32,517 bases of DNA from Patescibacteria group bacterium (lineage in GTDB: Bacteria; Patescibacteriota; Patescibacteriia; SG8-24): assembly GCA_028714475.1 (NCBI GenBank), contig JAQTNC010000006.1:47553-80069 (forward strand), in the 5' to 3' direction. Made by a program: the position numbers and the translations under genes. Below the pieces are notes generated by a model, which saw only the letters and a program-made list of their open reading frames with translations, was not told where the DNA came from and did not search any database. Shown piece after piece: positions 5,441 to 18,460 of this stretch. Numbering within the stretch: the stretch's first letter is position 1; the number at the start of each line of letters is the position of its first letter.

Positions 5441-8400
5441 CTAGCGATGTTTCTTTGTGTCTTGAACGCTATTCGGAAACTTCGCTCTCTCCCCGACCTC
5501 CGCCGCCCTAGCGGACCATTTCGGGACAAGTGCCTTCACGCGGCTCCTGACGCCCTTCTCTATCCCCGCCTCCATGCGGCTGCGCATGCCCTCGAGCGTG
5601 GCGTTGACCCTGGTCGGCGCCTTGCCGGGGTGGCTGGCGGTGAGCGTGAGGCCGAAGTCCGGCTCCGGGCTGCCGACGTCCACGGCGCGGAAGAGGAAGA
5701 CCCTCGACTCGTTGCGGAGCACGGTGCTCACGCAGTCCGCCGTCGTGACGACGTCGCCGTTCTCGTCGAGCACTCCCGCTATCTCGTACCCCGCCGGCAC
5801 CTCGAGGCAGGCGTCCACCGTCCAGCCGTTGTCGTCGGCGGTCAGCACGAACGGGTACAGCTCCTCCTCGCCGCTCCAGACCACGTAGTCGGGCCGGAGG
5901 ACGTCGAGCCTTGAGCCCGTGACGACCGTCAGCTTCCCGCCGTCGAGCTTCACTTCCCCGTTCTTCTTGATGTGCTTGATGACGTGGAGGTTCTTGGTGA
6001 GGGTGAGGAAGTTCGGGTTGACGTCCTCGAACACGTCATCGTCGTCGTCCTCGGCGTCGTACGCGAGACGGACGGACTTGCGGAACTCCTTGAGCTTGCC
6101 GGTATAGACGGACTGCGTCCCCTCGGAATACTTCATGACCACGAGGAAGCGGCCGGGGTGGTCCTCGCCGGCGAGGCAGGTCCCGGCGGCGTCGGTGACG
6201 CACGCGCCCACGAGGCCGACGCCGGACTCATAAATGTCGTCCATGAGGTGCTTGGCCGGCCTCCGGCCGCCGAAGGCCGAGATGAAGTCGGCATTATCGC
6301 GGTCGAAGACCTTGACCGTGACTCCCGCGAGGGGCCTGGTGCATTCGACGATCGGCCTGCCGTCGGGCCTGTACCCGCACTCGCCGGTCTTGGCCGAGTC
6401 GATTATCCTCATGTCCACGTTCGTCCGGTCGGCGAAGGGGCAGCCGTTGCGCTCCGGCGCACCGGCGACCGCGGGGCAGTCGTCGTCGGCGTCGAGGACG
6501 CCGTCGTTGTCCTGGTCGGGGCTGACGACGGTCCAGTTCCAGATTGCGGGGGTCTGGTCGGCGTTGCCGGCGGGGTCGGAGGCATAGACGGAGAAGGAAT
6601 GGGCGCCGAGCGCGAGGCCGGAATACTCCTTGGGGCTCGCGCACGGCTCCGCGGCGGCCCCATCGAGCGAGCAGGAGAACGCGCTCCCCTCCTCGGTGGC
6701 GGCGAAGGCGAACGCCGCGGACGTTTCCGTCGTGGTCGCCGCCGGGCCGGAACCGATCGTCGTGTCGGGCGCAACCGTATCGAGGGTAACGGAGACGCTG
6801 ACCGTCGTACTGTTGCCAGATGTGTCGGTCACTGTGGCGGTCAGGACGTTAGCGCCTTCGGTCAACTGGACGCCGGCACATGTCCAGATGCTTTCGGCAA
6901 TTTCGCAATTCGCGCCGTTCACGCTCACGGAGGCGACGCCGGAGCCGGAATCGGAGGCCGAGCCGGAAACCGTCACGGTCGGCTGGTTCGTGAGCAGGCC
7001 GTCGGCGGGTGCGGTTATCGAGACGTTCGGCACAGCAGAATCGATCTTGATTTCCAGCGATTTCGTCGTTTCGGAATTTCCGGCGTTGTCGCGCGAGCCG
7101 TACAGGATGGTATGGCTGCCGTCGCCGGAGACCTCGAACGGCTCGGCATACGTGGTCCAGGTCAGCCCGCCGTCAACGGAGTATTCGGTAGAGGTGACGC
7201 CGGTGCCCTCGCCGTCGTCGGCGGAGAGCGTCACGGTCACCGGGCCGAGATGCCAGCCGTTCTGTCCGGCCGGATCGGAGACGCTCGCTCCGGTCACGGG
7301 AGCTGCGTCGTCCACCACGCCCGGCTCTATGACCGGCGCGCCTGTTTCATCCACGGACATCTCATGCACGACCTCGACCCCCGGCTGGATGACCTGGTCC
7401 TCAAGCGTCGCGGAGGTGAGGATGCCGGTGGCCGGGTCAATCGTGCGGGCGTATATCGAGTACGAGTCGGACGGGTCGGGAATCTGCGCGGCGATGTCTG
7501 GGTTGGCGGCAAGGAACGCCTCGTTGTCGTGCGCGGAGACCGAATACCTGCATCCGGCGTTCTCGGGGATGGCCGGAACGTATATCCACTCCGGTGCGCC
7601 GCCATTATCACCGGACACCAACGACCCATCCACCTGATTTTCGAACTCCCCGGTGGCGTAATTCATGCCGACATGTCGTCCATCGGGACAATTCAACTGA
7701 AGATGCAGACCTAACTGAATCTGGTCGACGGATGGCAGATTTGCTTCGTTAGGATCGGGACGATGGCGATCAAAATATATGAATTCATCGCCCCTCATTT
7801 TCAACAACTCACTCGCGATAGACGCGGCACAAACACCAATGAAGAGAAGCAGCGAAATACCCCAAACAATCCTTACAAATATCCCGGGGCTATACTTCTT
7901 GCTTCGACGCCTTGCGCGCCACCAACTATAAACCGCTACAACCAGAAGAATTAGACTGGGAACAGACGACAGGGTTAACCACATCCCGAGGTAGCCTCTT
8001 AGCATCCACACGTAATCCAGTAATGACGGAGAGGGTGCCAGTCCGCTAACGGCCGACGCTTGCCCGCCTCCGCCAGACAAATGTGCGGATTGGCTTCTTG
8101 TTGAAAACCAAGCCCGCATTAACTTTGATTCCCCACTTAAGACCGCCCCCCAGTACTTGGCCTCAAAAGAACCTTCGTCAATCATGCTAATTTGAGCTCG
8201 AACCTCGTAACCTCCACCAGCATTTTCCTCACCCAGGTCGGTAAACTTCACCAGATTGTTCAGGTCGCGATACACCTCGCCATGTGCGAGAACGCCGTCG
8301 TTTAAAACTGACGATTCAGGACTTTGAGACTTGTTTCCCGGTATCGTAACTACCGCCGGATTCCGCGAATCGCCCGCATCATCGACATAATAGAGAAGGA

Positions 8401-10210
8401 AATCGTACACCGGCGGAGTTTCGGGCAGGGGGGTGTCCCAATCCGTCAAGCCTGTCGCCCGAGTTCTTGTCTCCAGAAGGTAGTATTTCGACACGGCCAG
8501 ACTGTCGCTTTCCTCAAGGTTATAGCGCGTCACGTAACCGCCGAACTGACTGGCCTCAAGTGCGCCAATTCGATATTGGTCGCCGTAGGCGGATTTGGGA
8601 TAAGGTCGCTGGTTGAGCCAGCCAAGGAAGATCCTCGTGAACGAGCTCGTGGGGGCGGGATTAGTACCATCGCCGAGTATCGGGCCGACGTCCGTTATTC
8701 CTCCGTTGTTTGAACCACTGGCCATGACATCCCACTTCTCCACACCCCCGATTTCATAAAGGTCAGGCGCACGCAATGCGTCGGGCGTCACTACGACGCC
8801 GATGGCATGACCCAGCTCATGTGCCCAATGTCCGACCGTGCCGCCCTCGGAAATTATCGACTTCTGGGCATGCTCCTGCGGAGGCAACGTGACGGTACGA
8901 ATTTTCGTATAATCGGGAATCGACTTTTCTCGTGGTTCACCCGCATGAACGGCTATGACAACGTCATATTGAGTCTCATCGATTCCGGCAGCCGCAATGG
9001 CATCAAACGCGAAGGCCGACTCTTTTTCCGACCCGGCATAATAACTCTCTGTCTTCCATGATTCAGGTATTTTGTACCAAGCACCTCCATTATCAAGGAT
9101 GGTGAAATCCAAGGTGATTTTCCCGTATGCCTGCTCATTATAATAATCTTGAACGCAGGTCTTCAGGTCGTTGTAGTAGTCCCATGAATGGCCGCTGTAG
9201 GTCTTCGCGGGAGTCGCTTCAAGTTTGCATGGTCGGTCGTTGATTTGTCCGCCTTTGTGTGATATGTCGTTGGGTTCAGCCAGCACCACGGCAACTTTAA
9301 TATGGCGAGAATAGGAGACGATGAAATCCGTATTCCCCGCAGCCCCGAACTCGTTCCAGCCCGACTCCCGGCCGATGTCGTCAACCGCGCGGGCGCGCCA
9401 GTGGTACTGGCCGTCCACCAGATTGCCGGACGTAACACTCGTAGTCGATCCCGACGGCACTAGGTCGGAGAGTAGCGTCCCACTCCCATCGAACGGCGTC
9501 CCAATCGGCTTCGCCTCGACCTGCAGGCCCACCTGATGGCCCTCGGGCGAGGAGACCGAGGCCTTGAACGTGATTGTTTTTTCGTCGGTGGATTCGCCCT
9601 CCGCGATGACCGTGGTCTTGTCGGCCTTGAACTGCCCGAGTCCGGAAAAGGCTGGGGCTGGATTCCAGAGGTCAAGCTCGATGGCCGGGAAGGCGTTCGG
9701 CCACCAGGACGGCTTCCATTCCCAGCCGGAGGGTGCGGCAGCCGCGTACCCGAACTGCAGGCACGAATAGAAGTCGGAGCTCCAGTTCAGGTCGATCTTG
9801 CCGAAGGTCTCCACCGTAAGGCCGCTGCCGCAGGTGAACTCGACCGGCCCTTCCGTGCCGCCGGCGACGACCAGGCCGTAGTGGCACCAGCCCGCCGCCT
9901 GGGTGTTCAGGTGAAGGTCAACCTTCAGCGAGTTCGGGCAGGTGTTCTTTATCCACATCCGCCCGGACGTGACCGTCCCGCTGCCGCCGGGGACGAACGG
10001 CCCGGCCCAGTCGAGGGTCAGGCCGCCGCTCCACCACGCCGGGTAGTAGGCGGCTGCCGGGTAGCCGACGGTCTCCGCGCGGGCGGGCGGGGCGGCGAGA
10101 AGGAGCCCCGCGAGCAAAACAAAACCGGCGACGAGGGCCGGGCGGGCGACGCGGCGGGTTGTCTCATTATTGAAAACGCGGGCGAACTGAAACGAAAGGC
10201 GCCTGAACAT
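5441..10210 (-). CDS. Giant secreted/membrane M6-like metalloprotease with Ig-like and calcium-binding domains
   Basis: A 1589-aa protein with a signal peptide (hydrophobic 25-42, AxA-type site near 45). Residues 200-300 look like a Fn3/Ig module. Residues 300-660 carry the zinc protease motif HELGHAIG (H464, E465, H468) with APDLYE at 481 and KWDVMASGS at 492. That combination is the M6 (immune inhibitor A) signature. Two membrane helices (about 743-762 and 780-800) are separated by a strongly basic loop, predicting a hairpin with both large halves outside the cell. Residues 960-1230 contain Ig-like repeats. Residues 1231-1247 form a thrombospondin-3-type Asp-rich calcium loop, and an acidic run lies at 1387-1393. 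The rest is unrecognised. Likely a cell-surface protease or adhesin acting on a host or neighbouring cell. The middle third of the gene is less GC-rich than both ends. Confidence 0.85.
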   Translation of the reverse strand: MFRRLSFQFARVFNNETTRRVARPALVAGFVLLAGLLLAAPPARAETVGYPAAAYYPAWWSGGLTLDWAGPFVPGGSGTVTSGRMWIKNTCPNSLKVDLHLNTQAAGWCHYGLVVAGGTEGPVEFTCGSGLTVETFGKIDLNWSSDFYSCLQFGYAAAAPSGWEWKPSWWPNAFPAIELDLWNPAPAFSGLGQFKADKTTVIAEGESTDEKTITFKASVSSPEGHQVGLQVEAKPIGTPFDGSGTLLSDLVPSGSTTSVTSGNLVDGQYHWRARAVDDIGRESGWNEFGAAGNTDFIVSYSRHIKVAVVLAEPNDISHKGGQINDRPCKLEATPAKTYSGHSWDYYNDLKTCVQDYYNEQAYGKITLDFTILDNGGAWYKIPESWKTESYYAGSEKESAFAFDAIAAAGIDETQYDVVIAVHAGEPREKSIPDYTKIRTVTLPPQEHAQKSIISEGGTVGHWAHELGHAIGVVVTPDALRAPDLYEIGGVEKWDVMASGSNNGGITDVGPILGDGTNPAPTSSFTRIFLGWLNQRPYPKSAYGDQYRIGALEASQFGGYVTRYNLEESDSLAVSKYYLLETRTRATGLTDWDTPLPETPPVYDFLLYYVDDAGDSRNPAVVTIPGNKSQSPESSVLNDGVLAHGEVYRDLNNLVKFTDLGEENAGGGYEVRAQISMIDEGSFEAKYWGAVLSGESKLMRAWFSTRSQSAHLSGGGGQASAVSGLAPSPSLLDYVWMLRGYLGMWLTLSSVPSLILLVVAVYSWWRARRRSKKYSPGIFVRIVWGISLLLFIGVCAASIASELLKMRGDEFIYFDRHRPDPNEANLPSVDQIQLGLHLQLNCPDGRHVGMNYATGEFENQVDGSLVSGDNGGAPEWIYVPAIPENAGCRYSVSAHDNEAFLAANPDIAAQIPDPSDSYSIYARTIDPATGILTSATLEDQVIQPGVEVVHEMSVDETGAPVIEPGVVDDAAPVTGASVSDPAGQNGWHLGPVTVTLSADDGEGTGVTSTEYSVDGGLTWTTYAEPFEVSGDGSHTILYGSRDNAGNSETTKSLEIKIDSAVPNVSITAPADGLLTNQPTVTVSGSASDSGSGVASVSVNGANCEIAESIWTCAGVQLTEGANVLTATVTDTSGNSTTVSVSVTLDTVAPDTTIGSGPAATTTETSAAFAFAATEEGSAFSCSLDGAAAEPCASPKEYSGLALGAHSFSVYASDPAGNADQTPAIWNWTVVSPDQDNDGVLDADDDCPAVAGAPERNGCPFADRTNVDMRIIDSAKTGECGYRPDGRPIVECTRPLAGVTVKVFDRDNADFISAFGGRRPAKHLMDDIYESGVGLVGACVTDAAGTCLAGEDHPGRFLVVMKYSEGTQSVYTGKLKEFRKSVRLAYDAEDDDDDVFEDVNPNFLTLTKNLHVIKHIKKNGEVKLDGGKLTVVTGSRLDVLRPDYVVWSGEEELYPFVLTADDNGWTVDACLEVPAGYEIAGVLDENGDVVTTADCVSTVLRNESRVFLFRAVDVGSPEPDFGLTLTASHPGKAPTRVNATLEGMRSRMEAGIEKGVRSRVKALVPKWSARAAEVGERAKFPNSVQDTKKHR

Positions 10211-15838: not shown

Positions 15839-16047
15839 AAAAATTCAAGCCCCTCCGGGGCCGGGTACCCATGGTCTCTGGGATGGCCAATGGGAATTCC
15901 GCGCCCCGACGTCGAATACGTCGGGGCTTGTCCGGGGTCGTCGCGCGTCCTGCGCCGGCTCGGACGCGCTCGCGCTCGGACTTCGCCGCTGGTCGATGCG
16001 GCTCGTCCTCGCTTACGACCCGTTCGATTCCCATTGGCCCTGCCAAA

Positions 16048-16084
16048 TAAAATGTCCGACCCCATTAAGGGGTCGGACATTTTA
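16048..16084. terminator. Terminator-like hairpin, repeat copy 1
   Basis: A perfect 16-bp stem (16048-16063 and 16069-16084) with a 5-nt loop and A/T ends on both sides. It duplicates the tRNA-His terminator as part of the 206-bp repeat. Confidence 0.7.
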
Positions 16085-16253
16085 TGGGGTGGCCAATGGG
16101 AATTCCGCGCCCCGACGTCGAATACGTCGGGGCTTGTCCGGGGTCGTCGCGCGTCCTGCGCCGGCTCGGACGCGCTCGCGCTCGGACTTCGCCGCTGGTC
16201 GATGCGGCTCGTCCTCGCTTACGACCCGTTCGATTCCCATTGGCCCTGCCAAA

Positions 16254-16290
16254 TAAAATGTCCGACCCCATTAAGGGGTCGGACATTTTA
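16254..16290. terminator. tRNA-His terminator (repeat copy 2)
   Basis: The same 16-bp stem-loop, directly following the encoded CCA of tRNA-His on the minus strand. It is the natural terminator of the tRNA transcript and the template for the copy 206 bp away. Confidence 0.8.
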
Positions 16291-16366
16291 TGGGGTGGCC
16301 AATGGGAATCGAACCCATATCAGCGGGACCACAACCCGCTGTGCTAACCGTTGCACCATGGCCACC
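16291..16366 (-). tRNA. tRNA-His (GTG)
   Basis: A full cloverleaf on the minus strand. The 7-bp acceptor stem (16295-16301 with 16359-16365) closes perfectly, the anticodon loop TTGTGGT gives anticodon GTG, and the T arm has GGTTCGATTCC. The CCA end is encoded (16291-16293). The extra G-1 characteristic of tRNA-His is at 16366, opposite C73 at 16294. Confidence 0.95.
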
Positions 16367-16401: not shown

Positions 16402-16878
16402 TCAAGATGCGGCAGAGGCATGCTTTTTGGCCAACGCGATCTCAATCTTTTTGGAACTTACCATAGCCTCCCTGATTGTTTCCCTAATTAATGCCATGGC
16501 CATCTCTCTGTCTTCCGGCGCACTCTTTGCTACCTTTTTTGCCAATCGGTACATTTCTTTTGGGCCCAAGACCAACCATTTCTTGTTGAGCAACAAAAAT
16601 ATCAGCAACGTTGTGACGGCAAGCCTTTTGTTTCCGTTCTGGAAAGGGTGGTTCTTAATCAAAAGATAGAACAGAACCGCGGCCTTACCGACTAAATTCG
16701 GATATAGTTGCTTCCCGCCAAATGTCTGAAATGGCTCCTTTAAGCTGCTTTCCAAAACATTCGGAAACCTAGTGGAAAAATCCGGTATCGGTTCGTTCCA
16801 TTCCATTGTTTTTCTAGCCAGTTCAAAAGCAGCAAACTCAACCATTTCCGGCGTCATCTGAATTTGTCTGAATCGCAT
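16402..16878 (-). CDS. Fic/Doc-family toxin
   Basis: A 158-aa Fic-fold protein of the death-on-curing type. The core motif HPFQNGNKR is at 77-85; catalytic H77 and the anion-hole GNKR are intact. Fic proteins transfer AMP to targets, while Doc kinases phosphorylate EF-Tu. The K-containing motif resembles Doc. The N residue at 81 replaces the usual acidic residue of the motif. The frame extends 17 codons upstream, but the ATG at 16876-16878 has an AAGGA ribosome binding site and begins 1 nt after the stop of the HTH gene. The two are thus a coupled operon, consistent with a toxin-antitoxin module. Confidence 0.82.
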   Translation of the reverse strand: MRFRQIQMTPEMVEFAAFELARKTMEWNEPIPDFSTRFPNVLESSLKEPFQTFGGKQLYPNLVGKAAVLFYLLIKNHPFQNGNKRLAVTTLLIFLLLNKKWLVLGPKEMYRLAKKVAKSAPEDREMAMALIRETIREAMVSSKKIEIALAKKHASAAS

Positions 16879-16879
16879 A

Positions 16880-17161
16880 CTATTCCTTACCCAACATCTT
16901 AAGTGTCTCGCCGTAATCACTAATGACACGGCTTACACCCTTTGAAATTTCGCTTTTCAACTTATCCGTTAGCGTGTTCGTCACGATGTCAACAATGACT
17001 TTGGCTGGAATCATATATTGATGCCCCACTTTCTCGGCTGACAGGCGGCCTGACTTAATTTGCTTAATTACAGCCACCCGTGTGACGCCTAACATTTTTG
17101 CGGCCTCACTAACAGAAAAATAGTTCTTGTTTAGCTTAATTTCAGTATTTTTGTAAACCAT
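16880..17161 (-). CDS. HTH (excisionase/MerR-like) antitoxin-type protein
   Basis: A 93-aa protein whose residues 14-52 match the excisionase-type helix-turn-helix (YFSVSEAAKMLGVTRVAV and the winged IKSGRLSAEKVGHQY stretch). The C-terminal 40 residues are charged and helical, suited to binding a toxin. It directly precedes the Fic/Doc gene with a 1-nt gap, so it is most likely the DNA-binding antitoxin and autoregulator. It lacks the (S/T)xxxE(G/N) inhibitory motif of Fic antitoxins, as expected for a Phd-like binding mode. Confidence 0.78.
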   Translation of the reverse strand: MVYKNTEIKLNKNYFSVSEAAKMLGVTRVAVIKQIKSGRLSAEKVGHQYMIPAKVIVDIVTNTLTDKLKSEISKGVSRVISDYGETLKMLGKE

Positions 17162-17198: not shown

Positions 17199-17283
17199 TG
17201 TTTATAAAAATGGGTGTCCGGCATCAAAATTACGAACCTAAACGGCCACGCCACGAGAACGCCAGTGTTTGTCTAGTAAAGGC

Positions 17284-17318
17284 CCCGTAAAATGACCTGC
17301 TTCGCAGGTCATCACGGG
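17284..17318. terminator. Extended hairpin beyond tRNA-Arg
   Basis: A 9-bp perfect hairpin (17292-17300 and 17304-17312) closed by an outer CCCGT/ACGGG pair. It lies between the HTH/Fic promoter and the tRNA-Arg terminator. It could be a second terminator or an uncharacterised structured RNA. Confidence 0.45.
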
Positions 17319-17320
17319 AC

Positions 17321-17355
17321 ACGTAAAAACGCCAGACAGGCTGGCGTTTTTACGT
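17321..17355. terminator. tRNA-Arg terminator
   Basis: A perfect 15-bp stem (17321-17335 and 17341-17355) with a 5-nt loop and A5/T5 tracts inside the stem. It immediately follows tRNA-Arg on the minus strand and overlaps the last base of its CCA. Confidence 0.85.
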
Positions 17356-17429
17356 GGTACCCCCGGATGGAATCGAACCATCGTAGCTAGCTTAGAAGGC
17401 TAGCGCTCTATCCGTTGAGCTACGGGGGC
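17355..17429 (-). tRNA. tRNA-Arg (TCT)
   Basis: A cloverleaf on the minus strand with D arm, a 5-bp anticodon stem, loop CTTCTAA (anticodon TCT) and a T arm with GGTTCGATTCC. CCA is encoded at 17355-17357. The first acceptor pair is G1:U72 rather than G:C. No variable long arm is present. Confidence 0.93.
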
Positions 17430-17437
17430 ATGTGTTA

Positions 17438-17540
17438 GTTGACAGTTGTCAGTTGACCGTTGACGGTTGCGATGCCTGTTGGACATCATCCTGCTCCAAT
17501 TTGTCCGCAACTGTCAACTGTCCACTGTCAACTTTTTTTT
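17438..17540. repeat. Long imperfect inverted repeat with T8 tail
   Basis: The left arm (17438-17471) is built of tandem GTTGAC/CAGTTG-type words. The right arm (17506-17532) is its imperfect reverse complement and is followed by T8 (17533-17540). The right arm overlaps the last codons of the recombinase gene. It can act as a terminator, but the internal repetitiveness suggests a dispersed repeat family. Confidence 0.6.
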
Positions 17541-18460
17541 CCATGATACTTCTCATACACCTCCTTCAACCGCTCATCCGTGATGTGCGTGTAGATCTGC
17601 GTCGTGGTGATGGATGAATGGCCAAGCATCGTCTGAACGCTCCTGATGTCCGCGCCATTCCGAAGCAAGTCGGTCGCGAAGGTGTGACGCATGGTGTGCG
17701 GCGTGATGCGTTTCGTGATGCCGGCCGCCTTGGCGTAATGCTCGACCAGGCGCTGAATGCTGCGCGGCGTGAGCCCGCCGTCATCGCGTCCCTTTTTGGC
17801 GCGATCGTGGCTCACGAACATGTGTGGATCAACATCGCCACGTTTGTCCAGATATTCCTTCAGCCACTTCTTCGCGTTTTCAGAAAGGAAAACCACACGC
17901 GGCTTGTCGCCCTTGCCTCGCACCGTGAATTCCGCCTGCTTCAGGTTGATGGAATCGCGCTTGAGTCCCGCGAGCTCCGACACGCGCAAGCCGGTCGAGA
18001 ACAGCAGTTCCAGAATCGCCTTATCGCGCAAGCGCACGAGCGATGCCGTCGCCGTCTCGCCGGTCGGCGTCTTGAGCGGCGCCGCCAGAAGCCGCGCCAA
18101 CTCCTCCTCGCTCAAAAACTCCACCGTGCGCTCCGGCATCCGCGCCAACTCAATCTTCTCCGGCGCCAACGTCTTGATGTCGCGCTTAGCCAGGTATTTC
18201 AAGAACGACCGCAACGCGATGAGATGATAATTCTGCGTGTTCTTCTTCATCCCCTCCCCGCGCTCGTCCTTCCAGCGATTCAGCCAAACGCGGTACTGCC
18301 GCACCATGTCGAGCGTCACCGCCCCCGGCGCCGCCCATTTCGCCCATTCGAAAAACCGCTTGAGGTAGAAATCATAATTCCGCACCGTCCGCTCCGAACG
18401 GTTGCGCTCCACCTCAAGGTAAGTGAGGAAATCGCTGATGAGTTGTTTGGCGTCGGCCAT
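17528..18460 (-). CDS. Tyrosine recombinase, XerC/XerD type
   Basis: A 310-aa site-specific recombinase. Residues 1-100 form the SAM-like DNA-binding domain and residues 115-300 the catalytic domain. R159 (STGLRVSEL), K183, H255 and R258 (HTMRHTFAT), H281 (LGHSS) and the nucleophile Y290 are all present. Length and motifs fit chromosomal XerC/D-type enzymes that resolve chromosome dimers, more than phage integrases. It is the only recombinase here. It lies on the 5' side of tRNA-Arg, not at its 3' end, so an island integrase is less likely. The -10 box ends 7 nt before the ATG, predicting a leaderless mRNA. Confidence 0.9.
   Translation of the reverse strand: MADAKQLISDFLTYLEVERNRSERTVRNYDFYLKRFFEWAKWAAPGAVTLDMVRQYRVWLNRWKDERGEGMKKNTQNYHLIALRSFLKYLAKRDIKTLAPEKIELARMPERTVEFLSEEELARLLAAPLKTPTGETATASLVRLRDKAILELLFSTGLRVSELAGLKRDSINLKQAEFTVRGKGDKPRVVFLSENAKKWLKEYLDKRGDVDPHMFVSHDRAKKGRDDGGLTPRSIQRLVEHYAKAAGITKRITPHTMRHTFATDLLRNGADIRSVQTMLGHSSITTTQIYTHITDERLKEVYEKYHGKKS

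Follow-up and report, generated by a model that had tools for sequence, protein, structure and literature searches.

A question was raised by the tRNA-His locus of the window (the whole stretch of DNA analysed here, 32,517 nucleotides): what is the 206-bp unit that stands twice behind an intact tRNA gene, and what could have brought it there? The locus, its relatives in other genomes and the candidate modes of action are described in this order. Labels beginning with L and G denote loci and genomes, respectively.

The tandem units beside tRNA-His

The features of the locus were collected in Table 1. The two units abutted tRNA-His and the preliminary description had claimed that they were identical, which held with 100% identity over 206 bp. 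Its claim of a 14-base word from the tRNA 3' end, TGGCCAATGGGAAT, at 15884, 16090 and 16296 held as well, and the full repeat was found to be 19 nt long, corresponding to tRNA positions 58-76. The claimed 18-base inverted copy, which reads GTTCGATTCCCATTGGCC on the + strand, was verified in both units as tRNA 3' sequence from position 53 in inverted orientation; in unit 1, this guide complemented the T-loop, the T-stem and part of the acceptor of tRNA-His. The strong hairpins, including the terminator-like one, were also confirmed, and the unit folded far better than its shuffles (z = -10.1 on the tRNA strand and -8.7 on the opposite strand). In the core of unit 1, the P2 helix was formed by 16221-16227 with 16141-16147 and enclosed a variable P3 hairpin and a covarying P4 hairpin. 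The covariance model R1 matched unit 1 with 152.5 bits (G000:C6:63638-63800).

Table 1. Coordinates of the tRNA-His locus and of the nearby recombinase gene in the window
Feature	Position	Strand	Basis and remarks
Intact tRNA-His (GTG), CCA encoded	16291..16365	-	ARAGORN and Rfam tRNA; positions 58-76 are 16291-16309
Unit 1 (proximal), T-loop type	16085..16290	-	Terminator-like hairpin, guide, core, copy of tRNA 58-76
Terminator-like hairpin, unit 1	16253..16291	-	Inverted repeat; 17-bp stem, 5-nt loop
Guide, unit 1	16228..16245	-	Sequence, inverted repeat, family rule
Core, unit 1	16141..16227	-	Fold and covariation
Single strand after P2, CGGACAAG (consensus RGGACA), unit 1	16133..16140	-	Conserved in two alignments
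P5 hairpin with conserved ATTCG loop, unit 1	16109..16133	-	Inverted repeat; compensatory changes in alignment
Copy of tRNA-His 58-76 closing unit 1	16085..16103	-	Direct-repeat family
Unit 2 (distal)	15879..16084	-	Same 206 bp as unit 1; R1 match 154.6 bits
Terminator-like hairpin, unit 2	16047..16085	-	Inverted repeat; 17-bp arms, 5-nt loop
Guide, unit 2	16022..16039	-	Inverted repeat
P5 hairpin, unit 2	15903..15927	-	Inverted repeat
Distal copy of tRNA 58-76, unit 2	15879..15897	-	Repeat family, 95%; one mismatch to the tRNA
XerD-like tyrosine recombinase	17528..18460	-	PF00589 search and ORF list; action on the element not shown

Because the two copies are identical, the doubling was probably a recent tandem duplication, most simply by recombination between the tRNA-end repeats, as is inferred from sequence alone; the recent origin proposed earlier fits this identity. 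The one-base difference in the distal tRNA-end copy makes the flanks of the two units distinguishable. Dimerisation or an assembly artefact as the whole story was ruled out by the relatives found throughout the class, and the exact doubling is the least informative part of the locus.

Several observations were made in the surroundings. Between tRNA-His and tRNA-Arg (window 16402-17161), a Fic-like ORF and a small HTH ORF were found; the syntenic locus of G007 was without them at this place and carried a 39-nt repeat of the tRNA-Arg 3' half instead. A second repeat family, named the A element (CCACGTAAAAA-hairpin-TTTTTACGTG...CACGTGGCGCAGCCA), has copies that begin where a tRNA ends at its 3' side and was seen next to tRNA-Arg (window 17249-17357), at L023 (1084-1203) and at about 20 further places of the genome, with 39 BLAST matches. 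Window 5441-10210 encodes a protein of 1589 aa, in which an M6-like metalloprotease part and repeated Ig-like segments were recognised by eye.

A family with arms customised to the adjacent tRNA

The preliminary description had proposed a search for the unit at tRNA genes of relatives, and this search was positive. Two covariance models with rough E-values were used, R1 built from six copies of the window's own genome and R2 from 20 diverse copies. In the source genome (1.41 Mb, 43 contigs), 13 covariance-model matches were obtained. Elements were read behind tRNA-Glu (two), tRNA-Met (two genes), tRNA-Arg(CCT), tRNA-Lys(CTT) and an intron-containing tRNA-Tyr, and the covariance model added those behind tRNA-Ser, tRNA-Cys and tRNA-Lys(TTT). 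R1 matched 16 of the 57 genomes in the search of relatives, the own genome included. Of 286 genomes in the class, R2 matched 68, with no more than 11 matches in any one of them; in a phylum-wide sample of 380 genomes it matched 19, which all belonged to the own class or to two other families of Moranbacteria type. Among named genomes, a fixed 19-mer of the core was present in 31 contigs, 29 of which came from Patescibacteria or unnamed bacterial bins and had the family arrangement, some of them decayed or cut by the contig end; Moranbacteria, Kerfeldbacteria, Komeilibacteria, Uhrbacteria, Doudnabacteria and others were represented. The two matches outside Patescibacteria (L120, L121) lacked arms and core and were rejected as chance. 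These results showed a family of non-coding elements of about 100-170 nt tied to tRNA genes in Patescibacteria.

The identity of the family with a known RNA was ruled out by Rfam at both gathering and E-value thresholds: above the gathering threshold, no family except tRNA was found at the window or at the searched copies, and the comparison of all 4227 Rfam families with the tRNA-Lys and tRNA-His copies gave no intron family at E up to 5. An origin from a virus or plasmid was likewise rejected, since IMG/VR searched with two core patterns and the phage records gave no match and the plasmid search only two short weak ones. No description of such an element was found in the open-access literature searched, subscription journals and preprints being outside its scope. 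The family is therefore likely to be undescribed, a judgement that rests on Rfam and on the literature searched.

Among the R1 matches in relatives, 43 of 53 followed an intact tRNA of the same strand at a distance of no more than 300 nt. R1 and pattern matches together gave 67 elements with such a neighbour, and the arms were readable in 66; overall, 14 tRNA isotypes were represented. The T-loop form was ordered on the tRNA strand as intact tRNA, short spacer usually with a terminator, guide, core and copy of tRNA 58-76. The left arm, or guide, was the complement of its own tRNA at 91-100% per position from 53 to 62 and at 86% at position 63, fading beyond. The right arm, or copy, matched positions 58-74 of the own tRNA at 86-98%, with a sharp start at 58. 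At guide position 59, the match to the own tRNA was 98.5% compared with 31.8% in shuffled pairings, while the acceptor part of the copy (66-73) reached 90.9% against 39.2%; in 2000 shuffles of elements and tRNAs, the observed guide or copy match was never reached. All six tRNAs with A57 had a guide with the matching T, though position 57 is absent from the copy. It should be mentioned that placing the left arms by best match favours positions 53-63. In addition, TCGAAC is fixed in the pattern-scan set, which leaves only the model-based set as an independent source on position 57; all six A57 cases come from that set. These data showed that guide and copy are customised to the adjacent tRNA, a property that the preliminary description could not see.

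The copy extended past the tRNA even at loci that do not encode CCA (L101, L104) and in many cases took in the downstream trailer or terminator, and therefore was derived from the gene or precursor rather than from the mature tRNA. In recent copies, the guide also paired with the acceptor stem, which implies that it was copied from the target and not chosen by pairing alone. Within the own genome, the cores were alike and the arms different, each arm set matching the adjacent tRNA. The Met and Arg copies of one genome had almost the same core with different arms, which implied that the core spread between tRNA genes and the arms were rewritten. With relatives at many tRNA genes, in this and other genomes, the earlier reading of a tiny element that recurs at tRNA 3' ends was supported, its insertion being inferred. 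Decayed copies also exist.

Introns and fragments of tRNA genes were noticed as well. Introns of about 270-630 nt were seen in tRNA-Tyr, tRNA-Asn and tRNA-Thr (L024 562-958, L060 755-1455 and L203 885-1225, oriented); by eye, those of Tyr and Thr (L024, L203) look like group I introns. 5' tRNA fragments (D-arm or anticodon arm) occurred upstream of intact tRNA-Glu and tRNA-Lys (L020 900-1090, L023 960-1010), and could perhaps be decayed 5'-side elements.

Conserved fold, variants and arrays

On the tRNA strand, helix P1 was formed by the guide with the copy (58-63), and P2 had the consensus GGGCAG/CUGCCC. Beyond P2, the element contained an AAGCGAG...CGAGCG element, the variable P3, the covarying P4, RGGACA and usually the P5 hairpin. 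The covariance analysis of the internal hairpins, which had been proposed beforehand, revealed strong compensatory covariation. For P2, P4 and a small adjoining helix, 96.9% of the cells were paired compared with 81.6% after shuffling in 20 sequences; in the larger set of 78 sequences, whose alignment was fitted to the model, the values were 95.0% and 74.0%, with 326 double changes against 85. The suggestion of a structured RNA unit was thereby supported, its transcription not being shown. In P4 and the adjoining helix, the tRNA strand had 28 G.U pairs and only 7 A.C mismatches. Of the tetraloops, 37 of 156 were of the GNRA type on this strand but 0 of 144 on the opposite one. Because both signals are strand-specific, an RNA of the sense strand is the likely form, though no transcript data are at hand and single-stranded DNA of the top strand was not excluded. 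Stable GNNA loops are known in DNA too, and the GNRA excess is therefore not decisive. A long-range pairing of the P3 loop with CGGAC was considered and dropped, as inspection showed that it was not kept in the His and Glu copies.

The orthologous element behind tRNA-Leu(CAG) in two genomes of genus g8 was 87.7% identical without gaps, compared to 76% for the spacer, 73% for the 60 nt that follow the element and 75% for 900 nt upstream, and its P5 showed a compensatory change. Since it was better conserved than its flanks, this element was concluded to be maintained there rather than decaying.

Besides the common form, with its junction between 57 and 58, a short subtype was found with the junction near 55/56 and without P5 (e.g. 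L053, L058, L159). Two further forms had also been out of view in the preliminary description. The D-loop form (L201-L203, L244, L248, L250, L251) consisted of tRNA 1-18, a GTC...GAC hairpin, the same P2-P4 core, AGGA and tRNA 20-30, followed by the complete tRNA; both flanks were direct copies and a separate guide was not evident. The variable-loop forms came after tRNA 1-47 (L163, L170, L204). These two forms show that the family addresses tRNA loops in general. In D-loop forms the hairpin stood to the left of the core, in T-loop forms to its right, possibly as if the same three-way junction had been opened through a different stem, which is our reading only. A few core copies were without a nearby tRNA (L257, L259); these two, both in G080, had almost identical cores, and one stood directly behind a terminator-like hairpin.

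Tandem or spaced arrays recurred; some were bare tandem units and others held genes, whose names were read by eye from translations and not by family search. An EutH-like transporter gene lay between near-identical elements in a tRNA-Ser array (L159), several ORFs between the elements of a tRNA-Asp array (L160), and ABC transporters between those of a tRNA-Gln array (L161); such cassette genes could be on either strand. The tRNA-His array of G007, syntenic with the window (XerD, tRNA-Arg, tRNA-His), contained a diversity-generating retroelement (DGR) and a Fic gene. At this place (L071/L088, G007:C33 14339-22000), tRNA-His was followed by a decayed element, the DGR with variable protein, template repeat and RT, and then two more elements.

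Modes of action and comparison with known systems

Candidate enzymes were searched by domain. The XerD-like gene was the sole Phage_integrase (PF00589) match in the window's genome, and all 57 relatives had at least one. RVT_1 (PF00078) had no match in the window's genome and matched some carriers and non-carriers among the 57 relatives; in the same search, Y1_Tnp (PF01797) had no match in the window's genome. As these searches were empty, no dedicated helper of the RVT_1, Y1_Tnp or extra-integrase kind was seen in a genome with 13 matches, and retrotransposition, HUH transposition and a dedicated integrase were left unsupported there. A casposon-like insertion was considered and dropped: the repeats reach into the terminator and exceed a usual target duplication in length.

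The explanation we prefer, at a probability of only about 0.42, is an intron-like mobile RNA that addresses tRNA loops by base pairing; catalysis, transcription and movement are all inferred. The core would act as RNA on the tRNA strand, as a minimal intron-like mobile element, and the guide would find the tRNA loop by base pairing, as the internal guide sequence of group I introns does. It would bring the last bases of the tRNA 5' fragment (53-57) up against the 58-76 that the element itself carries, and joining at 57/58 would yield a normal tRNA. If a half-reaction took place on the pre-tRNA and its product were copied into the DNA next to the gene, repeats of the tRNA end, often with the terminator, would remain, and the tRNA would be usable with or without splicing. 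Once two tRNA-end repeats were present, recombination could give tandem arrays like the 206-bp pair. A joining device at 57/58 was suggested by three observations: the guide extends across the junction and covers five bases of the tRNA half missing from the element, the copy is kept to the tRNA end although the guide no longer pairs there, and the fold is kept on the sense strand. Against this reading, the core had none of the tested group I features, no catalytic motif was recognised in it and no Rfam family matched. The terminator, moreover, usually lies between tRNA and element, so that the element may be rarely transcribed, and a current route by reverse transcription is unsupported in the window's genome because of its 13 matches without RVT_1. 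There is no direct evidence of a transcript, of splicing or of cleavage. Two further points count against it: a separate guide is not evident in D-loop forms, and the pairing of recent guides with the acceptor stem speaks against a choice of target by pairing alone. A bolder version is conceivable, in which the family is a new class of small catalytic or splicing RNA: the guide would cut or join tRNAs at loop positions (57/58, D-loop, variable loop), the RNA would spread from one tRNA gene to another by having its guide re-copied from each new target, and the spare tRNA end would keep the host alive.

The strongest rival, which remains possible, is a trailer RNA useful to the host, that is, a cis-acting or small RNA that aids expression, processing or quality control of the tRNA; one way to do so would be to pair with its T-loop and acceptor strand before it is processed. 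It is favoured by the conservation of orthologous elements beyond their flanks with compensatory changes, by the guide being kept only over the T-loop and the first T-stem bases, by the common orientation of element and tRNA, and by the lack of any dedicated mobility enzyme found in the window's genome. It is opposed by the sporadic distribution (68/286 in the class, 19/380 in the phylum sample) with different tRNAs in different genomes, by tandem arrays, orphan copies and gene-carrying arrays, and by the spread implied by near-identical cores with different arms at Met and Arg in one genome.

An integron-like DNA site is still a live alternative but an unlikely one. Here, a recombinase (perhaps XerD) would be offered the tRNA end in double-stranded form by the folded single strand, and the units, gene-bearing or not, would be cassettes strung behind the tRNA. 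The genes between near-identical elements at L159, L160, L161 and G007 and the presence of a tyrosine recombinase in every genome speak for it. However, a universal XerD cannot explain the sporadic distribution, an extra integrase is missing from the window's genome, and the conserved, covarying core differs from the tip of attC sites, which is variable. The bias of G.U over A.C, the junctions in the D-loop and variable loop, which are not typical recombinase sites, and the cassette genes on either strand also count against it. A by-product of template switching, in which replication or repair at stalled tRNA genes gives fold-back and direct copies with the core as a passenger, would account for the palindromic order of tRNA end, terminator and inverted tRNA end and for decayed copies, but is very improbable given that the core is conserved throughout the class and covaries strongly, that an orthologous copy is under selection and that the junction is fixed at 57/58.

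The element suggests an RNA-like parasite or tool aimed at tRNAs. Activity as RNA would make it a mobile or splicing RNA of a new kind. Activity as DNA would make it a system that captures genes, with tRNA genes as its anchors and no integrase dedicated to the task. As a host RNA, it would add tRNA-specific control in a very large bacterial phylum, most of which is uncultivated. Each option gives sharp, testable predictions, and the targets can be read directly from the sequence of the customised arms.

Four known systems were compared. Like tRNA integrative elements with attL and attR, the family has direct repeats of the tRNA 3' end that flank the insert and leave the tRNA intact, whereas the insert may be only about 190 nt, gene-free, with an inverted tRNA copy and a conserved fold. 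An integrase of its own is lacking, with no gene fitting the 206-bp unit and a single integrase in the genome. With integron attC sites and cassette arrays, it shares structured sites arrayed behind an anchor site, sometimes with genes between them; differently, the anchor is a tRNA gene, the conserved core is long and the arms are customised to the host tRNA. The paired RYYYAAC/GTTRRRY boxes of attC were absent: by inspection, the left arm was the complement of GTTCRANTCCC and the right arm had no GTT box. No integron integrase was seen either, by a PF00589 search only, with the IntI-specific domain outside it. MITE, REP and PATE repeats are likewise short, non-coding, palindromic, multi-copy and probably non-autonomous, but the window's genome had no Y1 transposase match and both ends of the present element are rewritten for each tRNA; to our knowledge, no other structured element has both ends rewritten to match each host tRNA.

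For group I introns, RNA-based spread by reverse splicing has been proposed (PMC3984707). Compared to them, the element is about half the size and has no P3-P8 core, no P/Q/R/S elements and no Rfam match. It also lacks the U.G at the proposed 5' site, position 57 being almost always a G or A with C or T as its partner, and the base that precedes 58 in the element is mostly A instead of G. Since one half of the tRNA is duplicated, the element leaves the tRNA uninterrupted. What both share is a contiguous guide 5' of the core, complementary to both sides of a tRNA-loop junction, and a 3' exon that lies 3' of the core; the present guide fits this scheme, being complementary to 53-63 across 57/58 and customised per tRNA.
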